NCBI RefSeq assembly: GCF_027257935.1
Contig: NZ_JANZKW010000002.1
Span: 124,001-188,000 of the forward strand
Source: Chitinimonas sp. BJYL2
Lineage (GTDB): Bacteria; Pseudomonadota; Gammaproteobacteria; Burkholderiales; Chitinimonadaceae
Direction: 5' to 3'
DNA length: 64,000 nt
The notes beneath the pieces were generated by a model, which did not search any database, was not told the origin of the DNA, and was given only the letters and a program-made list of their open reading frames with translations. Both the position numbers and the translations under genes were made by a program. This document shows positions 13,244 to 60,264 of the stretch, piece after piece. Numbering within the stretch: the first letter of the stretch is position 1; each line of letters begins with the position of its first letter.

Positions 13244-14059
13244 ATGCCCATCGTCATCAAGACTCCAGAAGATATCGAAAAAATGCGCGTTGCGGGCCGT
13301 CTGGCCAGCGAAGTGCTCGATTACATCACGCCCTTTGTGAAACCCGGCGTGACCACGCTCGAACTCAATCGCCTGTGTCATGAGCTGATGACCAAGGTGC
13401 AAGGCACGGTGCCTGCGCCGCTGAACTATTGCCCGCCCGGCTATACCCCCTTCCCTGCTTCGATCTGTACCTCGGTCAATCAGGTGGTGTGCCACGGTAT
13501 CCCGAACGACAAGCCGCTCAAGAATGGCGATGTGGTGAATCTGGACATCACGGTCATCAAGGACGGTTATCACGGCGATACCAGCCGGATGTTCTGTGTG
13601 GGCGAAGTGGCGCCGCATGCCAAGCGTCTGGCGCAGGTGACCTATGAATGCATGTGGATCGGTATCGACCTGGTCAAACCGGGTGCGCGACTGGGTGATA
13701 TCGGTGCTGCGATCCAGCGGCATGCTGAGGCGGCCGGTTATTCAGTAGTGCGCGAATTCTGCGGTCATGGCATCGGCAAGCAGTTCCATGAAGACCCACA
13801 AGTACTCCACTACGGCAAACCCGGGACGGGGATCGAACTGAAGGCCGGGATGATCTTCACCATCGAGCCGATGATCAACGCCGGCAAGAAGGACATCCGC
13901 TCCATGCCCGACGGCTGGACCATCGTCACCAAGGATCGCTCGCTGTCTGCACAGTGGGAACACACGGTATTGGTGACAGAGACGGGCTACGAAGTGCTGA
14001 CCGTGTCGGCCGATTCACCGGCCAAACCGGATATCAAGCCAGCGGCACTGGCTGCTTGA
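13244..14059 (+). CDS. map: Map, type I methionine aminopeptidase
   Basis: 271 aa, removes the initiator methionine from nascent proteins. All metal ligands are visible: D101, D112, H175, E208 and E239, with H84 as the additional active-site histidine. Usual length. It is not next to rpsB or tsf, unlike the arrangement in many bacteria. A textbook terminator follows directly. Confidence 0.97.
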   Translation: MPIVIKTPEDIEKMRVAGRLASEVLDYITPFVKPGVTTLELNRLCHELMTKVQGTVPAPLNYCPPGYTPFPASICTSVNQVVCHGIPNDKPLKNGDVVNLDITVIKDGYHGDTSRMFCVGEVAPHAKRLAQVTYECMWIGIDLVKPGARLGDIGAAIQRHAEAAGYSVVREFCGHGIGKQFHEDPQVLHYGKPGTGIELKAGMIFTIEPMINAGKKDIRSMPDGWTIVTKDRSLSAQWEHTVLVTETGYEVLTVSADSPAKPDIKPAALAA

Positions 14060-45589: not shown

Positions 45590-46477
45590 TCAGGCCGCAG
45601 CCCGATAGGCGCGCAGTGCCGGATGCTCGGCAACACGGGCAAGTTTTCTGGCGTAGGCGGGATCGGTGGCATAACCACCCTCCTGCAAGCCGCTGGCAAA
45701 GGCCTTGGCATCGCTGCCGGCTTGCACGGCATCGCCATAGCGGCGCGACAAGAGCTTCGCGTAATCGGCAAAAGCATCGGCGTAGCTGTCATAGGCGCGG
45801 AAGCGCTCGACCCGTTTCTGCGCGACGCCATCAACGTATTCGGTGGTGGTGATGTCGGCCGTCTTGCCGGTCCAGCTGCTGCCTGCCTTGATACCGAACA
45901 GGTTGTGGGTGTTGTTGCCCTTCGCATCCGTGATCGGCTTCTTGCCCCAGCCGGTTTCCAGCGCGGCATGGGCCAGCATCAGGTGCGGCGACAAGCCCAG
46001 CATTTGCGCGGCGCCGGAGGCAGCTTCACCCAGGGTCTCGACAAAGCTGCTGGAGTTGGCCGGCGCGGCTGCCGGGGCAGCGGCAGGATTTGCCGCCCGC
46101 GCGGTCTCCACGCCTCGGGCGGGGCTGCGCTGTGGCTGTTGGAGCAGGCTTGGATTGCCCATGCGCTCAATCTGCGCCGCAATCACATCGGCCAGCCCAA
46201 GCCCCTTGCCGCTGGTCATGGTCTGTGACAACTGCTGGTCGTACATCGAGCGGAACATGCCGACCGAATTGCTTTCCAGCTCGTCAAACTTGGGGGATGC
46301 CTCGCGCATGGACTTCATCACCATATCGAGAAACATCTTCTCGAACTGACCCGCGACCTCGCGCGCAGCACCCTTGGGGTCCTTGGCGACGCGGGCGCGC
46401 AGATCGCCCACGGCCTGTGCGTCAATCGCGAGGCGGGCGTTCAGAGCGGCGTTCTGGCTGGCGGTAGAGAGGGACAT
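45590..46477 (-). CDS. flgJ: FlgJ, rod cap and peptidoglycan hydrolase
   Basis: 295 aa. Two domains: N-terminal rod-binding (about 35-100, VAGQFEKMFLDMVMKSMREA) and C-terminal glucosaminidase (about 145-290) with the catalytic glutamate E174 in AALETGWGK. A proline/alanine linker joins them. Dual-domain FlgJ is typical of beta- and gammaproteobacteria. A sigma-54 promoter lies 39 bases upstream, so it is transcribed at least partly apart from flgI. Confidence 0.95.
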   Translation of the reverse strand: MSLSTASQNAALNARLAIDAQAVGDLRARVAKDPKGAAREVAGQFEKMFLDMVMKSMREASPKFDELESNSVGMFRSMYDQQLSQTMTSGKGLGLADVIAAQIERMGNPSLLQQPQRSPARGVETARAANPAAAPAAAPANSSSFVETLGEAASGAAQMLGLSPHLMLAHAALETGWGKKPITDAKGNNTHNLFGIKAGSSWTGKTADITTTEYVDGVAQKRVERFRAYDSYADAFADYAKLLSRRYGDAVQAGSDAKAFASGLQEGGYATDPAYARKLARVAEHPALRAYRAAA

Positions 46478-46515: not shown

Positions 46516-46531
46516 AGCAGGTAGCGTGCCA
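46516..46531 (-). promoter_or_regulatory. Sigma-54 promoter of flgJ(KL)
   Basis: Reverse strand reads TGGCACG-N4-CTGCT: GG and GC at the proper 10-base spacing. It lies in the 158-base flgI-flgJ gap. Confidence 0.75.
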
Positions 46532-46604
46532 GAATGCAAGTCTATGATTCTATTGAATCAATCTGGCAAAAATACGAAGGCTGGGGGTGTCTGGCAGGAC
46601 GAGG

Positions 46605-46610
46605 CGGCAA
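46605..46610 (-). promoter_or_regulatory. Candidate enhancer hexamer (CGGCAA) for flgJ
   Basis: One exact CGGCAA 75 bases upstream of the flgJ -24 element, in the context GCGGCAAG shared with flgB and flgF; CTGGCAAA at 46563-46570 is a near match. Confidence 0.4.
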
Positions 46611-46635
46611 GATTCTCCGCCCGGCTGATCCGCGG

Positions 46636-47745
46636 TCAGATGACTTCGAGTTCGGCCTTGAGCGCGCCTGCGGATTTCATGGCCTGGAGGATGGCCAGCA
46701 GATCCTGCGGCGTAGCGCCGATCTGGTTGAGTGCGCGGACCACATCATTGAGCGAAGCGCTCTTGGGCACAGAGGTGACGCCGCCCTTCTCTGCCTTGAC
46801 TTCAACCGTGGCATTCTTGACCGGTGCGGTCTGGCCGCCTGACAAGGGGCCGGGTTGGCTGACGTCATTCTTGGCGGAGATGGTGACCGTGAGATTGCCG
46901 TGGGAAATCGCACACGGCTCCAGAGTGACCGCCTTGTTCATTACCACCGAGCCTGTACGTGCATTGATGATGACCTTGGCGATGGCCTCGTTGGGGACAA
47001 TGTTCAGGTCCTCCAGCCGGGCCATGAAGGCAACGCGGGCGTCCGGGTCCTGCGGGGCCCGGACCTGGATGGTACGGGCATCCAGTGCGCGGGCTGTGCT
47101 GACCCCGAAGCTGCTGTTGATGGTCTGCACTACCTTGCTGGCGGTGCCGAAATTGGCTTCGTTCAGGGATAGCTGAATGAACTCGCCATCCCCTACCCCC
47201 CCGGGGACTTCACGTTCAACCGTAGCGCCATTGGGCAATCTGCCCACCGCCAGCTGATTGACCTGGGTGCTGGAACCACCGGCCGATGCGCCGGCGCCGG
47301 CCACGATGACGTTGCCTTGGGCTATGGCGTAAATCTGCCCGTCGGCACCCTTTAGCGGACTCATCAGCAAGGTGCCGCCACGGAGGCTCTTGGCATTACC
47401 GATGGACGACACGGTAACGTCAATCTGCTGGCCTACTCGGGAATAAGGCGGCAGGACAGCCGTGACCGTCACTGCCGCGACGTTCTTGAGTTGCAGATTG
47501 GTACCTGGTGGTAGTTGCACGCCCAGTTGGGTAAGCATGTTGAGCACGCTTTGCACCGTAAATGGTGTCTGCGTGGTCTGGTCACCGCTTCCATCAAGGC
47601 CAACGACAATCCCGTAGCCGATAAGCTGGTTGGGACGTACGCCACCTACCGTGGTGAGCTCCTTGAGGCGCTGCGCCTGAGCCAGACTGCATCCCGCAAT
47701 CAGCAGCACACAGGCAATCAGACGGGCAGCGCGGGCAAGGATCAT
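46636..47745 (-). CDS. flgI: FlgI, flagellar P-ring protein
   Basis: 369 aa with a signal peptide of about 23 residues (LAQAQ). Forms the P-ring around the rod in the periplasm; FlgA is its chaperone. Family landmarks: LKELTTVGGVRPNQLIGYGIVVGLDGSGD (first part) and AKVIINARTGSVVMNKAVTL. It follows flgH after 21 bases and precedes the separately promoted flgJ. Confidence 0.96.
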   Translation of the reverse strand: MILARAARLIACVLLIAGCSLAQAQRLKELTTVGGVRPNQLIGYGIVVGLDGSGDQTTQTPFTVQSVLNMLTQLGVQLPPGTNLQLKNVAAVTVTAVLPPYSRVGQQIDVTVSSIGNAKSLRGGTLLMSPLKGADGQIYAIAQGNVIVAGAGASAGGSSTQVNQLAVGRLPNGATVEREVPGGVGDGEFIQLSLNEANFGTASKVVQTINSSFGVSTARALDARTIQVRAPQDPDARVAFMARLEDLNIVPNEAIAKVIINARTGSVVMNKAVTLEPCAISHGNLTVTISAKNDVSQPGPLSGGQTAPVKNATVEVKAEKGGVTSVPKSASLNDVVRALNQIGATPQDLLAILQAMKSAGALKAELEVI

Positions 47746-47766
47746 GGGTACTTGAGAAGTTCTGGG

Positions 47767-48435
47767 CTAGAAGGGCAAGAAGCTGAAGAAGAATTTCTGC
47801 AACCAGCCGGCGCGGTCAGCGCTGGCAATCGTGCCGCTGCCCATTTCTTCAATACGGGCCTCGGCGATGCGGTTTGAGGATACCACATTGCCTGCCTTCA
47901 CATCGGCAGGGTTCACGATGCCGGATACCCGCAAGTAACTGATCTCGCCGCGAATATTGACCTGTTTTTCACCGGCGATCACGAGGTTGCCATTGGCCAG
48001 CACGTCCGTTACCTGCGCTGTGATCGAGCCACGGAAGCTGTTGCTCGAACGCGCCGTTCCCTTGCCATCGTGCTTGTTGGAGGAGGCAGCATCCAGATTC
48101 AAACCACCCAGCAAACCGTTGTAAAGACGCGAATTGGCGGCAGCGGCAATTTCGGTGGTGTTTTCCGAGCTGCGCTCTGCGGTGATGGCCGAATTGCTCG
48201 ATGCATTCACCTGCTCTTCGATCATCACCGTCAGGTTGTCGCCCAGCCGGCGTGCAAGCGGGTCCTCGAACATCATGCGCGCACCCGCGGTCTGGTAGAT
48301 GCTGCCATTGGCCAGCACCACCGGTGCCTGTGCCATGGGCCGAACACTGGTGGGTTGCGTGATGATGGTGGGCGGCACGCTGCTGGCACAGGCGGTGAGC
48401 AGCAGCGGGGTCAGTACGATCAGTTTGCGGATCAT
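47767..48435 (-). CDS. flgH: FlgH, flagellar L-ring lipoprotein
   Basis: 222 aa. Lipobox LLLTAC with the acylated cysteine C16. Forms the outer-membrane L-ring. Conserved blocks: ARMMFEDPLARRLGDNLTVMIEE, ANGNLVIAGEKQVNIRGE and LRVSGIVNPADV. It needs LspA for maturation, which is encoded in this window. Confidence 0.96.
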   Translation of the reverse strand: MIRKLIVLTPLLLTACASSVPPTIITQPTSVRPMAQAPVVLANGSIYQTAGARMMFEDPLARRLGDNLTVMIEEQVNASSNSAITAERSSENTTEIAAAANSRLYNGLLGGLNLDAASSNKHDGKGTARSSNSFRGSITAQVTDVLANGNLVIAGEKQVNIRGEISYLRVSGIVNPADVKAGNVVSSNRIAEARIEEMGSGTIASADRAGWLQKFFFSFLPF

Positions 48436-48475
48436 GATGGCGTTCCTGTCTTTATGGGTATGTGCCGTTGATCAC

Positions 48476-49258
48476 TTACAGCTGCGTCAAGCGCTGTAGC
48501 ATCTGGTCAGACGTCTGGATCGACCGCGAGTTGATCTCATAAGCGCGCTGCGCCTGGATCATGTTGATCAGCTCTTCGGTGATGTTGACGTTGGACGTTT
48601 CCACATACTGCTGGTTGAGCACGCCCAGACCATTCTGGCCGGGATCTCCCACCTGTGGCGCACCCGAGGCCGCGGTTTCCATATAGATGTTCTCGCCCGC
48701 GCTCAGCAAACCGGCCGGATTGATGAAAGTAGCCAGCTGCACATTGCCGATCTGCGTAGCCTGGGTCTGGCCGGCTTGCAGTGCCGTCACCACCCCATCG
48801 CGGCTGACGCCGAATTGCAGCGTACCCTCGGGCACAGTGATGTTGCCGGCGAGCGGATAGCCCTCGGCGGTCACGATCACACCCTGGTTATTGAGCTGGA
48901 ACGCGCCATCACGGGTGTAGCCAATCGTGCCGTCAGGCATTTCGATCTGGAAGAAGCCGCGACCGTTGATAGCGAGGTCATACGGGTTATCCGTCAACTG
49001 CAGATTACCCTGCGTGTGGATGCGCTCGGTGGCCACGGGCTTGACGCCGGTGCCGAGCTGCAGGCCCGTAGGCAACTGCGTCTGCTGGCTGGTTGCGCCA
49101 CCCGGCTGGCGCAGGGTTTGATACAGCAGATCCTCGAACACGGCGCGGCTGCGTTTGAAGCCGTTGGTGTTGACGTTGGCGAGGTTGTTGGACACGACGT
49201 CGATGTTCATCTGCATCGCGTCCATGCCGGTTTTGGCGATCCATAGCGAGCGCATCAT
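48476..49258 (-). CDS. flgG: FlgG, distal rod protein
   Basis: 260 aa, the normal length. Begins [20 protein letters not shown] with the conserved [12 protein letters not shown] motif and ends with the axial-protein C-terminal helix [29 protein letters not shown] upstream serves as ribosome-binding site for either of the two adjacent ATGs. The gap to flgF is 58 bases and has no clear promoter. Confidence 0.96.
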
Positions 49259-49316
49259 GGCGGCAATCCTTTCCTGGTGATTCCTGTCGTTTTGTCTTTA
49301 TGCGTGCGCGGTGCGA

Positions 49317-50054
49317 TCAGTTCATGCTCATGATCTGCGCCGCAGCACGGGCGTTCTGATCGGCTGATTGCAACATCCGTACCTGCAAGTCGTAATTGCG
49401 CTGGTAATCGATCATCTTCACCAGTTGTTCGACGGCATTCACATTGCTGGCTTCCAGCATGCCGCTGCTGATCTGCACGCTGGCATCAACCTGAGCCGGC
49501 GTACCGTCGCGCAGACGGAAAAGACCGTCATTGCCGCGTTCGAGATCGCGATCATTCGGTTTGACCAGCTTGAGACGGCCAATCTCATTGACCTGCGCGG
49601 GGTCGTTGACCGGGGCGGCGCTGATCGTGCCGTCTTTACCGAAGGTCAGGACCGAGTTTTCAGGCACGATGATCGGGCCGGCATCGCCCTGCACCGGGAA
49701 ACCCTCGCGTGTCTTGAGCATGCCGGTCGCGTCGATCTGCAGGCTGCCATTGCGCGTGTAGGCTTCGCCATTGCCGGTTTGCACGGCAAACAGGCCTTCT
49801 GTGGTGACGGCAATATCGAGATCGCGACCGGTAGTCTGCAAAGGGCCGGGCGAGAAATCCGAGCCCGTCGTCTGCTCGACCGTGAAAGTGCGCGTCTGGT
49901 AACCCGTACCGCCCACGGCCTGTACAGCGCGCGACGCCGACAGCTCCTGCTTGAAGCCTGGCGTGCTCGCGTTGGCAAGATTGTTGGCGACGGTGGCCTG
50001 CTGCATGGTTGCATGCTTGGCACCCGTCATCGCCACATAAATTAGCCTGTCCAT
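49317..50054 (-). CDS. flgF: FlgF, proximal rod protein
   Basis: 245 aa from the ATG at 50054, with AGGAGA upstream; the open frame extends further but only into the promoter region. Signature MDRLIYVAMTGAKHATMQQA, then VANNLANASTPGFKQ, and the C-terminal VKMIDYQRNYDLQVRMLQ. Together with FlgG, FlgB and FlgC it forms the rod. Preceded by its own sigma-54 promoter. Confidence 0.95.
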   Translation of the reverse strand: MDRLIYVAMTGAKHATMQQATVANNLANASTPGFKQELSASRAVQAVGGTGYQTRTFTVEQTTGSDFSPGPLQTTGRDLDIAVTTEGLFAVQTGNGEAYTRNGSLQIDATGMLKTREGFPVQGDAGPIIVPENSVLTFGKDGTISAAPVNDPAQVNEIGRLKLVKPNDRDLERGNDGLFRLRDGTPAQVDASVQISSGMLEASNVNAVEQLVKMIDYQRNYDLQVRMLQSADQNARAAAQIMSMN

Positions 50055-50105
50055 AATGCTGCTCTCCTGTCGGGCAAGCCGGATTGGATTGCCCGAAGGG
50101 ACTAA

Positions 50106-50121
50106 AGCACTGATCGTGCCA
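50106..50121 (-). promoter_or_regulatory. Sigma-54 promoter of flgF(GHI)
   Basis: Reverse strand reads TGGCACG-N4-GTGCT, with the invariant GG and GC 10 bases apart. It lies 52 bases before the flgF ATG and splits the rod/ring genes from flgBCDE. Confidence 0.8.
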
Positions 50122-50165
50122 GCAGCCAAACCACGCGGAAAACCGGCCTGTACGGAAATACAGGT

Positions 50166-50201
50166 CGGCAAAGGCGGCAAACAGGGGATGCCGGGCGGCA
50201 A
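50166..50201 (-). promoter_or_regulatory. Array of three CGGCAA hexamers upstream of the flgF promoter
   Basis: CGGCAA at 50166-50171, 50175-50180 and 50196-50201, all in the same orientation, 45-81 bases upstream of the -24 element. Positioned as sigma-54 activator-binding sites would be. Confidence 0.6.
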
Positions 50202-50226
50202 GATCAGCCGCCCGGTTTGTCAGGAA

Positions 50227-52317
50227 TTAACGGAGATTCACCAGAGTCTGCAGCATCTGATCCTGCGTCCGGATCGTTTGCGCGTTGGCCTGGTAGGAGC
50301 GCTGGGCAGTGATCATGTCTACCAGCTCCTTGGTCAGGTCAATGTTTGAATCCTCCACCGCACCCGACTGCAACACGCCGAAGTCACTGGTACCCGGTGT
50401 ACCGAGACGCGCCTGATTCGAGGCAAAGCTCTCGGCCCAGCGGTTATCGCCTAGCGGCTGCAAGCCCTGCGGGTTTGCGAAGTTGAACAGGGTGATCTGA
50501 CCGATAGTGCGGTTCTGGCCGTTGGAATAGCGACCGAGAATCAAACCATCCTTGCCGATGCTCAGGCCGGTGATGCTGCCATCGGCATAGCCATCCTGAG
50601 TCAGTTCGTTCACGCCGAACTGGCTGCCGAACTGGGTGGTGCCGGTAAAGAAAGTATTGAAGGCCAGGGGTGTCTGCGCACCGCTCGGCGACGGAATCGG
50701 CGAGGTATAGAAGAACTGGTCCAGCCCGCCTGGCTGCATCTTGCCGGCAGCATCAAAGGTCACATAGCCGGGCTGCGTGACCGGCTCGCCGCCGTCGAAA
50801 CTGGTCTGCACTTCCCAGGTGTTGACGGCCACCTTGCTGAAATACATGGTCATGGTGTGGGGCACGCCCTGAGAGTCATACACCGTGGCCGAAGTCGAAT
50901 GCGTGTAGCTTGAGGGGTCGGATGGTGTGACCGATGGCGTACTCCGTGCTTCGGTCGTGCCCGCCGTAAAGGCGGATGCCGTTTCAGTCAGGCCACTGAG
51001 GTTGATCTCGATATCCATGAACTCGCCGGCCGAGTATTCATACTGCGCCGTAAGCGGTGAGCCACTGAGCAACTGCCCCTGTTCATTGAAAATCAGCGAG
51101 CCGGCCGTGATCGGAATGGTGGGTACGGCAAGGTTGACCGGGCCGCCTGGGTTCGCGCCCAGCGGGGTCGTCGATGGCACACTGGTGTAACCCACGGCCC
51201 ACTGATGATCGCCGATCTTTTCCACGGTAATGGTCAGATCCACCGGGTAGCCATCCGGGTCCAGCACGCGTTGTGTGTAGGTACGCTGAGAAGCAGGAAC
51301 TGGGGCAGCCGTGGTGTTGGCTGGCGTGGTGGAGTCCAGATTCGAATCCGACACCGCCACCGAAGTGTTGAGCAAAGAGGTGTCGTTGGTTGTCAGGTTC
51401 GGCGCCACGGTTGCGGCACCGAGCGTGGCACCGGCAAAGTTGAGCGTGAAATTCAGCGGCGTGGTGCCGTAGGCGGCTGGCGGCGAGCCCAGTTTGTATG
51501 ACACGTTATGGCTGGAGCCGCTGGACAGGATGCCGCCAGTGAACTGAAGAATCGTGCCGGTCGGGGTAAAGGTGCCACCGGTGCCCAGGTCATCCAGCCG
51601 GGTTGCGACAGACCAGGTTTCCGGGCTGACACCCACGACTTCGTCGGCGGTTTTGGTCAGTTGCACATCCACAGTGTGGAAGCGTCCCGCCGAATCGACA
51701 ACACGGGTCTGGTAGGTCAGTGTGCTGGCCACAGCTGCTGCCGTATCGAGCACCAGGCCAGTCAGCGACACCGTACCTGTGCCACGGTTGACAATCGGGC
51801 TGCGGGCGTCGAAGTTCATCCCCATCCGCAATCCGGCATTGACCTGTGTGGAGCCCCCCGTTGCTTGCGCGCCAATGTTGGAGGTCTTGATCTGGATCGG
51901 CTGCGGTGTCGCGCCGGTCACCAGCTGATTATCGTTATTGGCAATGTAACCCGCCAGCTTCTGGCCGTTATTGACGATGTAACCTTCGCGATCGAGCTGG
52001 AACTGGCCATTACGGGCATAGCTGTAGGAGCCGGCTGGGTCGATCATGCGGAAGAAGCCGTTACCCTGGATGGCAATATCCAGAGGATTGTTGGTACTGG
52101 TAATCGCGCCTTGGGCAAACTGTTGCGCCACGTTCGAGGTGCGGCCACCAATCCCCACCTGGACGTTCGTGCTGGCCAGCGTATTGGCATAGATATCGGC
52201 AAATTCGGCACGCGAGCCCTTGTAGCCCACCGTGTTGGCATTGGCGACGTTGTTACCGACTACGTCGAGGAACTTGGAGGCCGAATTAAGACCGCTGAGA
52301 CCTTGCTGGAAACCCAT
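50227..52317 (-). CDS. flgE: FlgE, flagellar hook protein (three D2-like modules)
   Basis: 696 aa; E. coli FlgE is about 402. The N-terminus (MGFQQGLSGLNSASKFLDVV) and C-terminus (VEDSNIDLTKELVDMITAQR) are the conserved hook core. Between them three modules recur, starting near residues 197, 346 and 472, each with a pattern V.D..G..........K......W.V (RVVDSAGRFHTVDV, RVLDPDGYPVDLTI, TVYDSQGVPHTMTM). The hook surface should be unusually thick. It follows flgD after 68 bases. Confidence 0.95.
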   Translation of the reverse strand: MGFQQGLSGLNSASKFLDVVGNNVANANTVGYKGSRAEFADIYANTLASTNVQVGIGGRTSNVAQQFAQGAITSTNNPLDIAIQGNGFFRMIDPAGSYSYARNGQFQLDREGYIVNNGQKLAGYIANNDNQLVTGATPQPIQIKTSNIGAQATGGSTQVNAGLRMGMNFDARSPIVNRGTGTVSLTGLVLDTAAAVASTLTYQTRVVDSAGRFHTVDVQLTKTADEVVGVSPETWSVATRLDDLGTGGTFTPTGTILQFTGGILSSGSSHNVSYKLGSPPAAYGTTPLNFTLNFAGATLGAATVAPNLTTNDTSLLNTSVAVSDSNLDSTTPANTTAAPVPASQRTYTQRVLDPDGYPVDLTITVEKIGDHQWAVGYTSVPSTTPLGANPGGPVNLAVPTIPITAGSLIFNEQGQLLSGSPLTAQYEYSAGEFMDIEINLSGLTETASAFTAGTTEARSTPSVTPSDPSSYTHSTSATVYDSQGVPHTMTMYFSKVAVNTWEVQTSFDGGEPVTQPGYVTFDAAGKMQPGGLDQFFYTSPIPSPSGAQTPLAFNTFFTGTTQFGSQFGVNELTQDGYADGSITGLSIGKDGLILGRYSNGQNRTIGQITLFNFANPQGLQPLGDNRWAESFASNQARLGTPGTSDFGVLQSGAVEDSNIDLTKELVDMITAQRSYQANAQTIRTQDQMLQTLVNLR

Positions 52318-52385
52318 GATGATTCTCCTACCGATTGCTACGTCGGGGTTGGTATCGGTGCGCTACGCTGGAAACGCACCGGCCC

Positions 52386-53054
52386 TTACATGATGCTGCT
52401 GATCTGGCTGTATGGAAGCGTACGTCCGTCGGCAAGCTGTACGTTCACATTGCCACCATCCAGCGACACACTGCTGACACCCATGTAAGTCATGGTCCGC
52501 AGCATGGTTTCGGCACCGGACGACGACTGCGCCGTGGCCGAGAGGTAATATTTGCCGGCCGGTAAAGGATTGCCGCTGGCATCCTTGCCATCCCACTCGA
52601 TGGGTTGCTTGCCTGCGGTAAGCTGACCCATGTCGATTTCGTCGAGCTTCTGGTTGCCGGCGCCATAGATGGTCAGTTTGACCCGTGCGCCACCTTCGGG
52701 AACCAGCACCTGCGCATTCATGGGCTTCTCGCCGTCGAAGCTCATGGTGTCGCCTTCGACCAGCACCTGCTTGCCGATGAGTGATGCCGCCTGAAAACCC
52801 TGGCTGGCATTGAATGTGGTCATCATGCTGGTGATGCTGGAATTCAGGTTCTCGATCCCGCTCACCATGCTCATCTGCGCCATCTGTGCCGTGCTTTCGG
52901 CACTGTCCATGGGATTCATGGGGTCCTGGCTTTGCAGCTGGGTGATCAGGAGCTTGAGAAAGCGATCCTGCATCTCCTGCGTCTTGCTTTTGCTGTCGCG
53001 CGCTTGATTCAGGTTGCTGAATACATCGGCGCTGCTATTGACGGCGGTTGTCAT
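52386..53054 (-). CDS. flgD: FlgD, hook cap / scaffolding protein
   Basis: 222 aa. The N-terminal DRFLKLLITQLQSQDPMNPMD is the classic FlgD signature; the middle FlgD Ig-like region (PVEWDGKDASGNPLP-type repeat: IEWDGKDASGNPLPAGKYYL) and a Tudor-like fold follow. It caps the growing hook and is not kept in the finished structure. Between flgC and flgE with short gaps. Confidence 0.96.
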   Translation of the reverse strand: MTTAVNSSADVFSNLNQARDSKSKTQEMQDRFLKLLITQLQSQDPMNPMDSAESTAQMAQMSMVSGIENLNSSITSMMTTFNASQGFQAASLIGKQVLVEGDTMSFDGEKPMNAQVLVPEGGARVKLTIYGAGNQKLDEIDMGQLTAGKQPIEWDGKDASGNPLPAGKYYLSATAQSSSGAETMLRTMTYMGVSSVSLDGGNVNVQLADGRTLPYSQISSIM

Positions 53055-53069
53055 GGCGCCAACCCCCTA

Positions 53070-53483
53070 TCAAGCCTGACCCAGTTGCAGCGTGCGCTGC
53101 AGCAGGGCTTTGGCCGTGTTCATCATGTCGGCGTTGGTCTGGAACGAGCGCGACGCCGAAATCATGTTGGTCATCTCTTCCACTACATTCACGTTGGGCA
53201 TGGCGATATAGCCCGTTGCGTCGGCCAGCGGATTCTTCGGGTCGTATACCAGCCGCGCTGGCGACTGATCTTCCGACACCGCATTGACCTTCACCCCCAC
53301 CGCTTGTGGCTGATTGCCATACAAGGGTGTGGCGGCAAAGACCACCTGCTTGGCGCGATACGGTTGACCGGTCGAACTGGTCGCACTCTCCGCGTTGGCC
53401 AGATTGCTGGCCGTGGCGTTGAGCCGGATCGACTGCGCGGTCATTGCCGAACCGGCAATGTCGAATACGCGAAAGAGTGACAT
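53070..53483 (-). CDS. flgC: FlgC, proximal rod protein
   Basis: 137 aa. Conserved [20 protein letters not shown] and [14 protein letters not shown] at the N-terminus, [20 protein letters not shown] near the C-terminus. Standard length. Between flgB and flgD. Confidence 0.96.
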
Positions 53484-53522
53484 ATCGTGCTCCCTTTACC
53501 CCGGATACCTTCTGCTTACCTG

Positions 53523-53936
53523 TTATTGCGACTGCAGCGCCGAGCGCATGCCTTCAATGCGTTTCTGCATGAAGGTCAGACTGGCCTGATAGCGGACGGC
53601 GTTGTCGGTAAAGTTCGCCATCTCGATATTCATGTCCACCGTGTTGCCATCGATGGAGGGCTGCACATCATTCCGATACAGCAGATCGGCTTCGAGCACG
53701 CTGCGGCTGTTGCCCGCAAGGTGCCGGCCATCTGTCCGCGCCATGCCCATGCCCTGATTGGCACCGCGCTGTGATGCCACAGCGTTGCCCAGCGCCTGCG
53801 CAAAGTCGAAATCGCGGGCCTTGTAGCCCGGGGTATCGGCGTTGGCGATATTGCTGGCAATGACTTCCTGACGCGTGGCGCGCAATTTCAGCGCCGCTTC
53901 ATTGAAGGCAAAGTGCTTGTTGATGCTCGAAAGCAT
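53523..53936 (-). CDS. flgB: FlgB, proximal rod protein
   Basis: 137 aa. First gene of the flgBCDEFGHIJKL cluster. Conserved ATRQEVIASNIANADTPGYK (about 20-39) and NTVDMNIEMANFTDNAVRYQ near residue 100. A sigma-54 promoter and a group of CGGCAA/TTGCCG hexamers lie upstream. Confidence 0.96.
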   Translation of the reverse strand: MLSSINKHFAFNEAALKLRATRQEVIASNIANADTPGYKARDFDFAQALGNAVASQRGANQGMGMARTDGRHLAGNSRSVLEADLLYRNDVQPSIDGNTVDMNIEMANFTDNAVRYQASLTFMQKRIEGMRSALQSQ

Positions 53937-53990
53937 GGTGGCCTCGCGGATGATTTATTGTGTTGTATCGGTCCTGTCGGGGTAGTTAAA

Positions 53991-54006
53991 AGCACAGGCT
54001 GTGCCA
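53991..54006 (-). promoter_or_regulatory. Sigma-54 promoter of flgB(CDE)
   Basis: Reverse strand reads TGGCACA-N4-GTGCT, GG and GC correctly spaced, 55 bases before the flgB ATG. Same TGGCAC-N6-TGCT form as at flgF, flgJ and fliC. Confidence 0.78.
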
Positions 54007-54065
54007 GCAGCAATGATGCTGATAGATCAACGACTTGCCTGCTGGATCCCACGACCATTCATGGC

Positions 54066-54116
54066 AGGCGGCAAGCCTTGCCGCCTTGCTGGTTGCCGCA
54101 ACCATGCTGGCGGCAA
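54066..54116 (-). promoter_or_regulatory. Group of four CGGCAA/TTGCCG hexamers upstream of flgB
   Basis: CGGCAA at 54069-54074 and 54111-54116; TTGCCG at 54078-54083 and 54093-54098. The first two form a perfect 10-bp inverted repeat with a 1-base centre, AGGCGGCAAG/CTTGCCGCCT (54066-54086). They lie 63-111 bases upstream of the -24 element. Confidence 0.6.
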
Positions 54117-54125
54117 GTGGGCATG

Positions 54126-54153
54126 AAAAAAGCCGGGCATGGCGCCCGGCTTT
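54126..54153 (-). terminator. Terminator of cysDN
   Basis: Reverse strand has stem GCCGGGC/GCCCGGC with a 5-base loop followed by TTTTTT, starting 26 bases after the cysN stop. It shields the flgB enhancer region from read-through. Confidence 0.92.
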
Positions 54154-54178
54154 GGTCGATGCAACAACAACGGTGGGA

Positions 54179-55618
54179 TCAGCGCTTGAGCAAAGTGCCG
54201 ATATCGCGCGCTTCCCAGTGCGGGAAGTATTTGCGCACCAGCGTGTTCAGCTCCACTTCAAACGCACGCAGACGCGCCAGCTCGTCCGATTCACCCGCCC
54301 CCTGCTCTGCTACTGCCGCGGCTTCGATCATGCCGGCACCAGCCGTGGCATTGCTGAGCCGATCGATCACGATCAAGCTGCCTGAGGCGCGGCTTTCACG
54401 GTAGGCATCGAATACGGCCGGAGCATTGAGCTGGATGCGGCACAGACCGATTTCGTTGAGCGCCAGCTCGTCAGCGCTGCTGGGTGCCAGGGTGTTGACG
54501 TCGATACGCTGCAGCAGCTGTACCACCCGGCCGCTCACCTGCTTGCCGGCCAGCTTGAACAGATACTCCTTGCCCAGTTGCAGCGGCTGCTCGTTCATCC
54601 ACACGATATGGGCATCGAATGCGGTCGCCACATTGGGACGGGTTTCGTTGGCCTTGACGAGCATGTCGCCGCGCGACACATCGATCTCGTCTTCGAGTGT
54701 GAGTGTGATGGCCTGGCCCGCAAAGGCCGCTGGCTGCTCGCCCTCGTAGGTGACAATGGCCTTGACCTTGCTCTGCTTCCCGGAAGGCAGCGCCACTACG
54801 GTGTCGCCTGGCGCAACGTGGCCAGCGGCAATCGTGCCGCAGAAACCGCGGAAATCCAGATTCGGCCGGTTCACGTATTGCACCGGGAGCCGGAAAGCAT
54901 CCAGATGCACGTCGTGATCGATTTCTACCGATTCAAGCAGCTGCATCAGCGTGCCGCCGGTGTACCAAGGCGCGCGTTCGGATGCGTTGACTACATTGTC
55001 GCCACGCAGTGCAGAAATCGGCACGAAGCGGATATCGGGTATGCCCAGCCCTTCGGTAAACGCGAGGTAATCCGCACGGATACGGTCAAACACAGCCTGA
55101 TCAAAATCGACCAGGTCCATCTTGTTGACCGCCACAATCACATGCTTGATGCCCAACAGGCTCACGATGAAGCTGTGGCGGCGAGTCTGGGTCTGCACGC
55201 CATAGCGCGCGTCGATGAGGATGATGGCGAGATTGCTGGTCGATGCACCCGTCGCCATATTGCGCGTGTACTGCTCATGGCCCGGGCAGTCGGCAATGAT
55301 GAACTTGCGCTTGTCGGTGCTGAAGTATCGGTAGGCCACGTCGATGGTGATGCCCTGCTCGCGCTCGGCTTGCAGACCATCGACCAGCAGCGCGAGATCG
55401 AACTCGTCATCGGTCGTGTTGTACTTCTGGCTGTCCTTCTTGATGGCGGCCAGCTGGTCCTCGAAAATCAGCTTTGAATCGTGCAGCAGGCGACCGATCA
55501 GCGTGGACTTGCCGTCATCGACATTACCGCAGGTGATGAAGCGCAGCAGATCCTTGTTCTCGTGCTGCTTGAGGTAAGCCAGGATGTCGCTGGCGATCAG
55601 GTCGGATTGGTGAGACAT
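54179..55618 (-). CDS. cysN: CysN, sulfate adenylyltransferase GTPase subunit
   Basis: 479 aa translation-factor-like GTPase that drives ATP sulfurylase with CysD. G1 is [10 protein letters not shown]3 [11 protein letters not shown] and G4 NKMDLVDF. No C-terminal APS kinase (CysC) domain is fused: the protein ends after the third beta-barrel. It overlaps cysD by one base. Confidence 0.95.
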
Positions 55619-56544
55619 CAGAAGTACCCTTCCATCTTTTTCTTTTCCATCGAGCCGCTCGAATCGTGATCGATCACCCTGCCCTGCCGTTCGCTGGTTG
55701 TCGTCAGCAGCATTTCCTGAATGATCTCGGGCAGCGTGGCCGCAGTGGACTCCACGGCCCCCGTCAGCGGGTAGCAGCCCAACGTGCGGAAGCGCACGGA
55801 CTTGGTCTGGATGCTGGCTTTCTGCTCGGGCGTCAGGTACTGGAGGATGCGATCGTCATCAATCATGACCAGCGTACCGTTCAGGTTCACGACGGGTCGT
55901 TCGGCCGAGAAATACAATGGCACGATCTCGATATTTTCGAGAAAGATGTATTGCCAGATATCCAGCTCGGTCCAGTTCGACAAAGGGAAGACGCGGATGC
56001 TTTCGCCCTTGTCGATACGCGAGTTGTAGATATTCCAGAGTTCCGGGCGCTGGTTCTTCGGGTCCCAGCGGTGGTTCTTGTCGCGGAAGGAATAGACACG
56101 CTCCTTGGCGCGGCTTTTTTCCTCATCACGTCGCGCACCCCCAAATGCGGCATCAAAGCCGTATTTGTTGAGCGCCTGCTTCAGGCTCTCGGTCTTCATC
56201 ACATCGGTGTGCTTGGCCGAACCGGCGGTAAACGGGTTGATGCCGGCTTTCACCCCTTCTTCGTTCACATGCGTGATCAGTCTCCAGCCTTCTGCCGCCT
56301 GCTGATCACGTAGCTTGTACATCTCCTGGAACTTCCAGGTCGTATCCACATGCATCAGCGGAAACGGCGGCTTGCCAGGGGCAAAGGCCTTCTTGGCCAG
56401 ATGCAGCATCACGGCCGAATCCTTGCCGATTGAATACAGCATCACCGGGTTGTCAAACTCGGCGGCTACCTCGCGGATGATATGGATGGACTCAGCCTCA
56501 AGCTGTTTGAGATGAGTCAGGCGTGCAGGGGAAATCGTTGTCAT
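55618..56544 (-). CDS. cysD: CysD, sulfate adenylyltransferase subunit 2
   Basis: 308 aa. PP-loop ATP pyrophosphatase fold with [13 protein letters not shown] (about residues 37-49); the [17 protein letters not shown] block and the C-terminal [19 protein letters not shown] are standard CysD features. With CysN it makes adenosine 5'-phosphosulfate from sulfate and ATP. Divergent from rlmJ. Confidence 0.96.
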
Positions 56545-56727
56545 GTCGTATCGGCAGGCTGGAACGCTATCGGTGCCATCGCACCATGGAGGAAGACGTT
56601 TTACCAGAAGGCAGGCAGGCGCAGAAAAACCGAATTGCTATATCCATAGCTGGTCGCCGATCAGCTTGGGACCGGCCGGATGGAGCGGCAGCGGTACAAT
56701 GCAGTCAACTTTCCAGAGAAACGCACC

Positions 56728-57573
56728 ATGCTGAGTTACCGCCACGCCTTTCACGCCGGCAACCATGCCGATGTGCTCAAGCACTATCTGCTTGTCCGTC
56801 TGCTTGATTACCTGAACCAGAAGGACAAGCCCTACTGGTATGTGGACACCCACGCCGGTGCTGGCGCTTATCAGCTCGATAGCCACTATGCGAGCAAGAA
56901 TGCCGAGTTTGCCGGCGGGATTGCTCGGCTCTGGCAGCGCCACGATCTGCCGGCAGGCTTGGCACAGTATGTCGATGTGGTACGCGGGCTCAATCAGGAC
57001 GGCAAGCTGCTGCATTATCCGGGCTCGCCGCTAGTGGCCGCCCCGCTACTCAGGCAAGGCGATCGGTTGCGCTTGTTCGAGCTGCATCCAACGGATTTTC
57101 CGATACTTGAAAACAATATGGCGACACTGCGGCGTCAGGCCAAGCTGTTCAAGTCGGACGGCTTTGCTGGCCTCAAGGCCGTGCTACCGCCCGAACCACG
57201 CCGGGGTCTGGTGCTGATTGACCCACCGTATGAAGAGAAGCAGGATTACCAGCGCGTGGTGCAAGCCATGGAAGAAGCCCTGCGCCGCTTCCCGACCGGG
57301 ACCTATGCGATCTGGTATCCGATGCTGCAACGCTATGAATCGCGCCAGCTGCCTGAGAATCTCAAGCACTTGCCGGTCAAGAGCTGGTTGCACGCGAGCC
57401 TGACGGTACACACGCCGAATGAGGACGGATTCGGCATGCATGGCAGCGGCATGTTCATCCTTAATCCGCCTTGGCGCCTGCATGAAGAGCTGAGTACCAC
57501 CCTGCCCTATCTGCGCACCCACTTGGCGCTGGACCCCGGTGCGAGCTATCAACTCGAACAACTTGCCGGTTGA
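56728..57573 (+). CDS. rlmJ: RlmJ, 23S rRNA (adenine-2030-N6)-methyltransferase
   Basis: 281 aa from ATG at 56728, giving the invariant N-terminus MLSYRHAFHAGNHADVLKH; the frame open 16 codons upstream is not conserved-looking. DTHAGAGAY binds S-adenosylmethionine and DPPYE (about residue 164) is the catalytic motif IV. Standard length. Confidence 0.95.
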   Translation: MLSYRHAFHAGNHADVLKHYLLVRLLDYLNQKDKPYWYVDTHAGAGAYQLDSHYASKNAEFAGGIARLWQRHDLPAGLAQYVDVVRGLNQDGKLLHYPGSPLVAAPLLRQGDRLRLFELHPTDFPILENNMATLRRQAKLFKSDGFAGLKAVLPPEPRRGLVLIDPPYEEKQDYQRVVQAMEEALRRFPTGTYAIWYPMLQRYESRQLPENLKHLPVKSWLHASLTVHTPNEDGFGMHGSGMFILNPPWRLHEELSTTLPYLRTHLALDPGASYQLEQLAG

Positions 57574-57606
57574 ATTTACGCGCGATCAAGCCGCTGAATA
57601 CAAAGC

Positions 57607-57634
57607 AAAAAAGCCAGCGGAACGATCCGCTGGC
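57607..57634 (-). terminator. Terminator of fliC
   Basis: Reverse strand has a perfect 8-bp stem GCCAGCGG/CCGCTGGC with a 6-base loop followed by TTTTTT. Confidence 0.92.
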
Positions 57635-57664
57635 GTAAAAGACTGCTGCATAGTATCCGAGGGC

Positions 57665-59353
57665 TTAACCACCACGCAGCAGCGACAGGACCTGATTGGG
57701 CAGCGAGTTGGCCTGTGCCAGCATCGCGGTACCCGCTTGTTGAAGAATTTGCGCACGGGTCAGGTTAGCGGTTTCAGCCGCAAAGTCTGCATCCCGGATG
57801 CGTGAACGCGAGGCGCTGAGGTTCTCGGACGTTACCTGCAGGTTGGCAATCGTCGCCATGAACCGGTTCTGCAGCGCACCGAAGGCTGCGCGCTGGCCGC
57901 TGACCACCGCAAGTGCGCTATCCACGATACGCAGGGCTTGGGTAGCACCCTCAACCGTGCTGATATCCAGCGAGTTCACAGCCGCCAGGTTGGAGCTGAC
58001 GCTACTACCCGAGTTGACCGACATCCCCGACGTGGCACCGGCAATCGTACCTGACGAGAAGAACACACCCGACTGCACCGCTGTACCGCTCAAGGCCGTG
58101 ATCGAGTAGCTCTTGTCAGAGTCCAGCACGACCTGACCGCCGATGCGTAGCAGGAAGCCCGATGTCTGGTTACCACCCGCTGCACCGCCGGAGCCCACCG
58201 CGCTCATGTTGTAAGCGGCACCCGCCGGCACACCACCCGCGCCACCCGTGACCATGGAGATCACACCGGTGGATTGGGTATCGACGGCGGTAGCGACCGC
58301 CTGCATGACGATATCGTTGCCATCGTCATTCGTCAGGATGATGGCGTTGCCGATTTCGTTCAGGCGCGCCGTGATGCCGGTCTGCGAGGCTCGATCATTG
58401 AATGCCTGCACGGCTTGGGACAAGCCTGCCGAGGTACGTGCATCGCCCACTTTGAAGGTGACATTGACGATCTGGGTGTTGTTACCCGTCACGTTAATCG
58501 AGTAGGAGAGGCCATTACCGCTGACGCCATCGACCGCGCCAGAGCTGGCACCCAAACCGCCAGCCGAGCTGACGTTGAATTGCAGCATGGCTTGGGTACG
58601 GGCTGTGGCACGGACACCGGTATTGGTGGCGTTGATGGCTGCCGCAATGTCCCGTGCCGAAGAGCCTGAAGTCAGATTGGTAATCAGCGCACCGCCGTTA
58701 CCACCGTTGATGCTCAGCGCACCCGATCCGTTGCTGTTGAACGAATTCAGAACGGCGCCAGAGGTACCGCCACTGATGACCGTGCCGGATACGGTGCCGG
58801 TCTGCGCAAACGTGGCCTGACCCAGCAGACTCTTCACCTGATAGCTGCCGTAGTTGTTGGTACGGAGATTCGAGGTTGTCGCCGTGATCGTCTGGTTGGC
58901 ATTGGCGCCGACCTGATAGATGGCTGCACCGTAGCTACCATCGAACAATTTCAAGCCGTTGAAATCCGTGGACACCGCAAAACGGTCCAGTTCGGCCGTG
59001 AGCTGCGTCACTTCGGAATTCAAGGCGGCGCGATCTTGCGGTGAGTTGGTCGCATTCGCTGACTGAACCGCGAGTTCGCGGATGCGCTGGAGAATGTCGC
59101 CCATTTGGGATAGTGCGCCCTCACCGACTTGAGCCAGTGACACACCATCGTTAGCGTTACGACGCGCCTGATCCGAGCCACGGATCTGCGAAGTCATACG
59201 CTCCGAGATCGCCAGGCCGGCAGCATCGTCGCGTGCCGAGTTGATACGCAAGCCCGAGGACAATCGCTGGAGCGAAGTCTCAAGACTGCCTTTCGAGGTA
59301 TCCAGATTCCGTTGCGCGTTGAGCGACGGAATATTGGTGTTGATGACTTGCAT
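57665..59353 (-). CDS. fliC: FliC, flagellin
   Basis: 562 aa. N-terminal D0/D1 ([40 protein letters not shown]) and C-terminal D1/D0 ([39 protein letters not shown]) are conserved. The middle (about 165-450) is a variable, Gly/Ser/Thr-rich surface region with a flagellin IN motif near 220-262 ([20 protein letters not shown]). AAGGAGAG precedes the start. Only this flagellin is present in the window. Two candidate promoters, a sigma-28 and a far sigma-54, lie upstream. Confidence 0.97.
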
Positions 59354-59409
59354 GATTACTCTCCTTCGCCGTGTGCCCTGGGTAGCAGGACGCCGTCTCT
59401 GTCGAACAC

Positions 59410-59436
59410 CGATCGGAAATGCGGTTTCTTTTCTTA
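59410..59436 (-). promoter_or_regulatory. Sigma-28-like promoter close to fliC
   Basis: Reverse strand reads TAAG-N15-TCCGATCG, compared with TAAA-N15-GCCGATAA: right spacing, CCGAT core intact. The distance to the fliC ATG is about 57 bases. It is clearly weaker than the fapA element. Confidence 0.5.
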
Positions 59437-59681
59437 CATTTCCCTACGGTTGCCACCCATGCCCCCGGGCAACAAACCGACTGCCTAGAGCGCGTCGGTT
59501 TCGATCACCATCGAACCTGCGCGCGGGAAACAAGGTCAACCAACCTCCCTGTTTCCGCTTCTCATTCCGTCCGGGCCCCGCTTGCCCCGTTACTGGGGTT
59601 GGCGGTAAAGCGCCTGTATTCGCTTCATCTGCCTGACCTGTACTGCTGTGGGTCACGCAATAATCCGGACGAACTCTTTAG

Positions 59682-59697
59682 AGCAATCAGCGTGCCA
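59682..59697 (-). promoter_or_regulatory. Consensus sigma-54 promoter far upstream of fliC
   Basis: Reverse strand reads TGGCACG-N4-TTGCT, the best match to the consensus in the window. The transcript would have a leader of about 315 bases before the fliC ATG. Confidence 0.85.
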
Positions 59698-59762
59698 GAG
59701 TTGTTTTATCTATACAAATCAATTGGTTAACAATATTTGAATGGTAGGAATGGCTAGGGAGC

Positions 59763-59864
59763 CGGCAAGTCATTGCCGAGCGGACCGGCAAAGTGGCGGG
59801 CCTGGGCGGCAACCGATCAGGCGGGCACAGGCAATCCTTGCCGGTACCGGCAAGGTACCGGCAA
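59763..59864 (-). promoter_or_regulatory. Array of seven CGGCAA/TTGCCG hexamers upstream of the fliC sigma-54 promoter
   Basis: CGGCAA at 59763, 59786, 59807, 59848 and 59859; TTGCCG at 59773 and 59838 (first base given). Most sit in a CCGGCAA(A/G) context, and 59838-59864 is a compact block with an ACCGGCAAGGT direct repeat. The array is 66-168 bases upstream of the -24 element, the normal range for a sigma-54 enhancer. Confidence 0.7.
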
Positions 59865-59901: not shown

Positions 59902-60264
59902 CTAGCGGGAGGGGCTTGCGTCGGATACGGGGCGCTGCGCGGGCGCCGTATTCGTTGCTGGCAGTAACAAGCCGAGATCAGGGGGAGCGATAGCTTCGTC
60001 TACACCACGTTCGATAAAGTGTATGAAGGCGAGCAATTCGGCCACGGCCCGGTAGAGTTCGGGGGGAATATGGCGGTCCAGATCCACTTGCATCAGCAAG
60101 GTCACCAGCTCGGGGGACTCATGGACATAAACCCCCGCATCACGGGCACGCTCAATGATGGTCTCCGCCATCAGCCCGCGGCCTTTGGCGACAACGCGCG
60201 GAGCTGCAGCGCCTTCCCGATAGGCCAGCGCAACCGCTTCCTGAATGGGCCGACGTTTAGCCAT
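59902..60264 (-). CDS. FlhB2/FhlX, FlhB C-terminal-domain homologue
   Basis: 120 aa, corresponding to the cytoplasmic autocleavage domain of FlhB/YscU without membrane helices. Conserved core: EAVALAYREG, APRVVAKGRG, IPPELYRAVAELLAFIHFIE. The NPTH autocleavage motif is replaced (RRPIQEAVA), so it cannot self-cleave. In other bacteria such short proteins can partly replace the C-terminal part of FlhB. It follows the FliK-like gene by 2 bases. Confidence 0.87.
   Translation of the reverse strand: MAKRRPIQEAVALAYREGAAAPRVVAKGRGLMAETIIERARDAGVYVHESPELVTLLMQVDLDRHIPPELYRAVAELLAFIHFIERGVDEAIAPPDLGLLLPATNTAPAQRPVSDASPSR

Follow-up and report, generated by a model that had tools for sequence, protein, structure and literature searches.

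Phased CGGCAA/TTGCCG dyads at the sigma-54 flagellar promoters of Chitinimonas sp. BJYL2: probable enhancer sites of a FleR/FlbD-type activator

As given in the excerpted parts of the sources, the FlbD site of Caulobacter is CCCGGCA-N5-TGCCGGG, while the flagella-regulator motif of DVU1063, an FlbD homolog of Desulfovibrio, is GGCAxxxxTGCC (both PMC3333781). FleR of Pseudomonas and FlrC of Vibrio are sigma-54 activators of the two-component type that act on rod and hook genes (PMC7064773, PMC6504787), and a FleR motif obtained by systematic evolution of ligands by exponential enrichment exists for Pseudomonas syringae (PMC7532196). Here we examine 64,000 nucleotides of Chitinimonas sp. BJYL2 (the window; bases 124001-188000 of contig C2 in a genome of 3.45 Mb), where the sigma-54 promoters of flgB, flgF, flgJ and the flagellin gene fliC are each preceded by a dyad of the form CGGCAA-N3/4-TTGCCG. 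These dyads are real, conserved and, by their signature, functional; they are most likely enhancer elements of the FlbD/ftr kind, and we put the probability that they are bound by the FleR/FlbD-like sigma-54 activator encoded in the same genome at roughly 0.86. Judged from sequence, the box recurs at sigma-54 flagellar promoters of many other bacteria, on one side of the helix. NtrC enhancers likewise consist of dimer sites in pairs, set on a single face of the helix above a sigma-54 promoter; their half-site sequence differs from CGGCAA/TTGCCG.

Each of the four promoters possesses one dyad matching at 10 to 12 of 12 positions, its right half lying 68 to 80 bp above the -24 box (Table 1). Measured against the inverted repeat CGGCA-N5-TGCCG, flgB scores 12/12, flgF and flgJ 10/12, and fliC 12/12 with one extra spacer base. 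Alignment of the flgB upstream DNA of ten genomes reveals the block GCGGCAARRCTTGCCGCC standing out amid unconserved DNA. The dyad CGGCAA-N3-TTGCCG is kept there in eight of nine family relatives (perfect in seven, 11/12 in G007; lost in G008), with its right half 58-70 bp above the -24 box. Conservation of the hexamers wherever relatives keep the promoter, which the initial annotation had made a touchstone, is thus largely borne out at flgB. In G005, a member of the same genus, hexamers and promoter upstream of flgB have the same layout as at the Chitinimonas taiwanensis locus. At flgJ, TTGCCG is found 78-81 bp above the promoter in 5/7 relatives whose flgJ lay in the stretch, and in most of these the dyad has a poor left half (10/12). 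Upstream of flgF no sigma-54 match was found in nine relatives, apart from a weak one 244 bp away in G007. In relatives with no recognizable sigma-54 promoter before flgF, the flgE-flgF gap (six loci, L125 to L130) still has degenerate CGGCAA..CCG repeats immediately ahead of the flgF start.

Inverted repeats between genes may also be RNA hairpins or terminators of the genes upstream, and the flanked flgB dyad, GGCGGCAAGGCTTGCCGCC, could form a short hairpin. No T-run follows it, however; a different hairpin, G+C-rich and with a T-run, was seen by eye just after cysN, upstream of the dyad, and the position of the dyad keeps phase with the sigma-54 promoter downstream. A hairpin or terminator role is barely credible.

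To widen the comparison, 115 flgB upstream regions were collected from other genomes. A search of the order matched in 83 of 120 genomes and contributed 26 loci; a search of the class matched in 148 of 274 genomes and contributed 29 loci, plus a further 60 regions taken out of its list. All were oriented by tblastn, and by our scoring 95 possess a sigma-54 site and 20 do not. Within 200 bp upstream of the promoter, CGGCAA heads the de novo ranking of enriched hexamers and is present in 83 of the 95 against 18.2 expected from shuffles. Dyads of at least 11/12 occur at 55 of these promoters (12/12 in 27), where 30 shuffle sets average 0.27, and in the order subset at 19 of 20 loci. Hexamer density is one per 90 bp in the 95 regions versus one per 250 bp in the other 20, which are not clean negatives: a dyad of 11/12 or 12/12 is present in five of them, and variant promoters occur in some. 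Spacings between CGGCAA and TTGCCG peak at 9 and 10 bp, and tandem TTGCCG copies lie 20-22 bp apart. The dyad CGGCAA-N3/4-TTGCCG is the better unit, and the hexamer, which the initial annotation had regarded as the shared element, its half-site. A reading based on the hexamer alone was rejected, the hexamer being common in coding DNA and the conserved thing being the position of the dyad.

The same 95 promoters reveal a helical register. TTGCCG copies cluster at distances of 59, 70, 80, 91 and 102 bp from the -24 box, with a best period of 10.6 bp (n=127, statistic 55.7; the largest of 500 uniform nulls reached 10.0). The statistic is still 31.7 (n=73) if only the TTGCCG nearest to each promoter is counted, and the TTGCCG sites of the window fall no more than 3.1 bp from the mean phase. 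Such phasing is the pattern to be expected of an activator facing the polymerase across a DNA bend.

The proposal under study began with four reverse-strand flagellar units, each with a TGGCAC-N6-TGCT promoter. All four sites were found, on the minus strand, as the best sigma-54 matches in the window by our own scoring, and the gene names are supported by NCBIfam. Fifteen CGGCAA/TTGCCG hexamers lie 50-167 bp upstream of their -24 boxes, in good agreement with the 45-170 bases claimed. The claimed counts of 7, 4, 3 and 1 are likewise correct as numbers, but not in the gene order flgB, flgF, flgJ, fliC: fliC has seven, flgB four, flgF three and flgJ one. The assumed background of one hexamer per 1.5 kb at about 62% G+C was off about fourfold; the window has 60.0% G+C and 169 copies of CGGCAA (about one per 379 bp) versus a dinucleotide-shuffle mean of 62.9, and just three hexamers are commoner. 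It may be argued from this excess, and from the clusters of 4-5 hexamers per 200 bp inside open reading frames (ORFs), that composition or codon bias makes CGGCAA common in the genome and that the promoter clusters are due to chance. Because such clusters occur in ORFs, a hexamer cluster alone is indeed not diagnostic. Yet the four upstream regions contain 15 hexamers in 804 bp (one per 54 bp), compared with 37 in 29,241 bp (one per 790 bp) of other intergenic DNA and 805 in 356,471 bp (one per 443 bp) of ORF DNA. These figures stem from the window and 21 further, slightly overlapping stretches of the same genome, with ORFs called mechanically. The clusters hold up against this better background, and intergenic DNA lacking sigma-54 promoters is not equally rich in CGGCAA. 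A purely compositional origin is already contradicted by the positional conservation at flgB and flgJ and by the enrichment over dinucleotide shuffles and 10.6-bp phase in the 95 promoters, and must be considered very improbable.

Genome-wide, TGGCACN6TGCW occurs 47 times. Among the 43 sites other than the four flagellar ones, 32 lack any hexamer within 200 bp, eight have one and three have two; many of the 43 fall inside ORFs and are perhaps not promoters. A candidate glnK-like promoter (C1:1098033; gene named by eye) has none of these hexamers. The exact dyad CGGCAANNNTTGCCG is present twice, at flgB and at L078:7535-7549 (C3:399534-399548), where it lies inside an ORF and is probably there by chance. 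A genome-wide dyad scan was rejected as a sole predictor, given two exact copies and 34 one-mismatch copies versus 18 in the control.

A gene for a FleR/FlbD-like activator, referred to here as fleR, lies outside the window in the same genome (L072:13490-14887). Its product of 465 amino acids possesses a receiver domain (PF00072), a sigma-54 AAA+ domain (PF00158) and a Fis-type helix-turn-helix (PF02954). The best NCBIfam model is FlbD (NF050807), with 459.6 bits against a cut-off of 750, which makes the protein a relative of FlbD rather than an equivalog. Adjoining flagellar genes encode FliE (read by eye), FliI and FliL. A nearby histidine kinase with PAS, HisKA and HATPase domains (L072:17865-18887) is a candidate cognate partner, with other genes between it and fleR. 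These (L072:15079-17483) encode a protein with a CheB-methylesterase domain and one with receiver, SpoIIE phosphatase and kinase-like parts, an unusual insertion in a fleS-fleR arrangement. FleR homologs (E≤1e-100) are present in 57 of the 120 order genomes. At least two hexamers precede flgB in 71/91 hosts with a FleR homolog versus 7/24 without (Fisher 1.3e-5). The initial annotation had suspected activator sites of the FlrC, FleR or FlbD families, a suggestion with which the dyad geometry and the presence of this gene are both consistent.

Some other regulator, such as a FleQ-like activator or a nucleoid protein, might bind the dyads in place of FleR, for the genome encodes several other sigma-54 activators (seven strong PF00158 matches) and the dyad is sometimes kept in genomes without FleR. 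What renders this quite unlikely is that the geometry is that of the published FlbD site, with a similar one described for the Desulfovibrio FlbD homolog (excerpts of PMC3333781), that the hexamers associate with the presence of FleR, and that the recognition region S-x-RTLR-x-KL of the helix-turn-helix is common to the Burkholderiales FleR and alphaproteobacterial FlbD rows compared. If FleR is the ligand, one activator dimer would occupy the dyad some 70-80 bp above the -24 box, and additional half-sites, in many cases at a distance of two helical turns, would allow more dimers to join in an active AAA+ ring. Through bending of the DNA the ring would contact the sigma-54 polymerase on the same helix face, a contact that would fire the rod, hook-side and flagellin operons. 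The promoters, the dyads with their conservation, spacing and helical phase, and the activator gene are seen in the sequence itself; that FleR binds, that a ring forms, that the DNA loops and that expression responds is what we infer from them.

Several observations weigh against FleR enhancer dyads. Twelve of the 95 sigma-54 flgB promoters have no upstream hexamer, G008 retains its flgB promoter with the dyad absent, and no hexamer is found within 200 bp of a candidate sigma-54 site (C2:643450) that precedes fliK. Positions on the CGGCAA strand show no significant phase in the same class-wide test. The flgF and flgJ dyads of the window score just 10/12, which is not rare on its own, and they accordingly rest more on position and company than on score. 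One-mismatch dyads number 34 genome-wide (36 with the two exact ones) versus 18 in the control and mostly do not lie at promoters. Strict dyads associate weakly with FleR (53/91 versus 8/24, p=0.039); of 14 genomes that have a sigma-54 site but no FleR, some of them incomplete, 7 still carry the dyad. In V. cholerae, FlrC sites are as a rule found downstream of the start, unlike the upstream sites found here, and work upstream too (excerpted text of PMC6504787). Downstream sites as an explanation of the 12 hexamer-less promoters found no support, with two hexamers in the 1,261 bp, a short stretch, that were covered.

The initial annotation further suggested that copy number sets the strength or timing of each promoter. 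In its favor, fliC, expected to have the strongest promoter, possesses the most copies here and in G002 (nine), and tends toward many hexamers. Counts nevertheless drift between orthologs, within 200 bp from 0 to 5 at flgB and 1 to 4 at flgJ among relatives, and within 220 bp of the sigma-54 flagellin promoters they are 0, 0, 3, 4, 4, 7 and 9; what the promoters have in common is one conserved dyad at a fixed distance. Such a code is therefore unsupported and appears unlikely. In two close genomes with no hexamer within 220 bp of the flagellin promoter, a seven-hexamer cluster lies 282-421 bp upstream.

Dyads were also noticed inside fleR, first in the genome of the window, the rest of the order then serving as a test. 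This genome has a tandem dyad pair in fleR (L072 about 13695-13729; C2 about 649695-649728). At 14 of 30 order loci the linker preceding the helix-turn-helix contains a dyad scoring 11/12 or better, 194-280 nucleotides before the stop codon. In the parsed Burkholderiales set the count is 13 of 29 versus 1.3 under synonymous-codon shuffles; without the four Chitinimonas loci, 9 of 25 remain. Outside the order the linker zone has no such dyad in 22 parsed loci (of 29). Between the fleR stop codon and fliE some families possess a sigma-54-like site, and Chitinimonas a sigma-70-like one. These internal dyads may serve the fliE operon as an enhancer at a distance or take part in feedback on fleR-fliE. 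At 6 of 16 loci looked at, a sigma-54-like site also lies within fleR, some 200 bp ahead of the dyad; the conserved thing there is probably the protein sequence.

Table 1. Flagellar genes, sigma-54 promoters, dyads and half-sites in the window (distances refer to the -24 box)
Feature	Position	Strand	Basis or remark
flgB	53523..53936	-	NCBIfam TIGR01396
flgB sigma-54 promoter TGGCACAGCCTGTGCT	53991..54006	-	sigma-54 scoring of window; relatives
flgB dyad CGGCAAGGCTTGCCG, flanked as GGCGGCAAGGCTTGCCGCC	54069..54083	.	12/12; right half 68 bp above -24
flgB extra half-site CGGCAA	54093..54098	-	hexamer scan
flgB extra half-site, TTGCCG in promoter's direction	54111..54116	+	110 bp above -24
flgF	49317..50054	-	NCBIfam NF009280, TIGR02490
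flgF sigma-54 promoter TGGCACGATCAGTGCT	50106..50121	-	sigma-54 scoring; no counterpart recognized in relatives
flgF half-site	50166..50171	+	50 bp above -24
flgF half-site	50175..50180	+	59 bp above -24; 21 bp from dyad's right half
flgF dyad CGGCTGATCTTGCCG	50196..50210	.	10/12; right half 80 bp above -24
flgJ	45590..46477	-	NCBIfam TIGR02541
flgJ sigma-54 promoter TGGCACGCTACCTGCT	46516..46531	-	sigma-54 scoring of window; relatives
flgJ dyad CGGAGAATCTTGCCG	46605..46619	.	10/12; right half 79 bp above -24
Flagellin (fliC)	57665..59353	-	NCBIfam flagellin models
fliC sigma-54 promoter TGGCACGCTGATTGCT	59682..59697	-	sigma-54 scoring; 344 nucleotides before ATG
fliC proximal dyad CGGCAATGACTTGCCG, N4 form	59763..59778	.	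12/12; right half 71 bp above -24
fliC two half-sites 21 bp apart	59786..59812 (59786-59791, 59807-59812)	.	hexamer scan
fliC distal dyad CGGCAAGGATTGCCT	59829..59843	.	11/12
fliC two further half-sites	59848..59864 (59848-59853, 59859-59864)	.	hexamer scan

NCBI taxonomy places Chitinimonas under Betaproteobacteria, Neisseriales, and the closest named match of FlgE is that of Chitinimonas taiwanensis (70% identity over the best segment). The flagellar genes of the window are split by cysD and cysN (54179-56544), which sit between fliC and flgB; cysN is adjacent to flgB in G003 and G006 also. Just upstream of the fliC enhancer region, 59902-60264 encodes a short protein with similarity to the C-terminal part of FlhB. 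The fliC transcript is predicted to begin with a leader of some 340 nucleotides (59354-59697), and in 7/7 genus genomes examined the sigma-54 flagellin promoter lies 344-366 nucleotides before the ATG. A second flagellin gene (L149:1802-3493), 78% identical, has no sigma-54 site; the second flagellin copies of some relatives possess a sigma-28-like promoter.

Whether a single grammar of phased CGGCAA-N3/4-TTGCCG dyads serves FlbD, FleR and FlrC across Alpha-, Beta- and Gammaproteobacteria, with dyads two helical turns apart in 10.6-bp register with the -24 box and, in Burkholderiales, an operator embedded in the fleR linker before the helix-turn-helix, is in our estimate an even bet. Were it true, FleR/FlrC regulons could be read directly from sequence. 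Class III flagellar regulons would become predictable in many polar flagellates, including ones without genetics, and the shared phased box offers a clean test of looping geometry. The copies inside fleR, exceeding what synonymous codon choice gives, point to a regulatory link from the checkpoint activator to the early operon that follows it. FlbD boxes in Caulobacter and a relative in Desulfovibrio are already known (excerpts of PMC3333781). The open-licence literature searched, outside which the primary FlbD and FlrC footprint papers fall, was not found to state the class-wide box, its breadth or the 10.6-bp phasing, nor a FleR/FlrC site sequence for Beta- or Gammaproteobacteria.

The alphaproteobacterial side of this comparison was approached through 12 FlbD-bearing genomes, which contain 34 exact dyads versus 10 for the reversed control; four of the genomes have none. 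Of 16 dyad loci, five are placed 88-139 bp upstream of sigma-54-like sites whose genes, named by eye, resemble hook, flagellin and fliK genes; the other 11 have no such placement. The sigma-54 pattern in two genomes gave 16 matches versus 24 for its reversed control, one of the 16 with an exact dyad in range; since the control yields more matches, that pattern alone shows nothing.

Among the described systems, the class III enhancers of FleR and FlrC are comparable in that a two-component-type sigma-54 activator is encoded in a flagellar cluster. The sites precede flgB, flgF, flgJ and fliC, which makes the rod, hook-side and core flagellin operons candidate targets. The Desulfovibrio DVU1063 motif is likewise a GGCA/TGCC dyad of an FlbD homolog at flagellar genes; it differs in having N4 between GGCA and TGCC where the window has N5 (flgB, flgF, flgJ) or N6 (fliC). 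The closest counterpart is the Caulobacter ftr element, which also combines sigma-54 flagellar promoters with an FlbD-like activator. By comparison, the activator here is FleR-like, scores below the FlbD equivalog cut-off and has a histidine kinase nearby, the outer CCC/GGG is matched in part, and an N4 spacing is also used (fliC). The likeness to ftr half-sites raised in the initial annotation has nonetheless proved apt, for CGGCAA-N3-TTGCCG is the inner part of CCCGGCA-N5-TGCCGGG with identical spacing (as excerpted from PMC3333781). Since the dyad of the window has the published FlbD spacing, it most likely represents an element of a known kind, the FlbD/ftr box.

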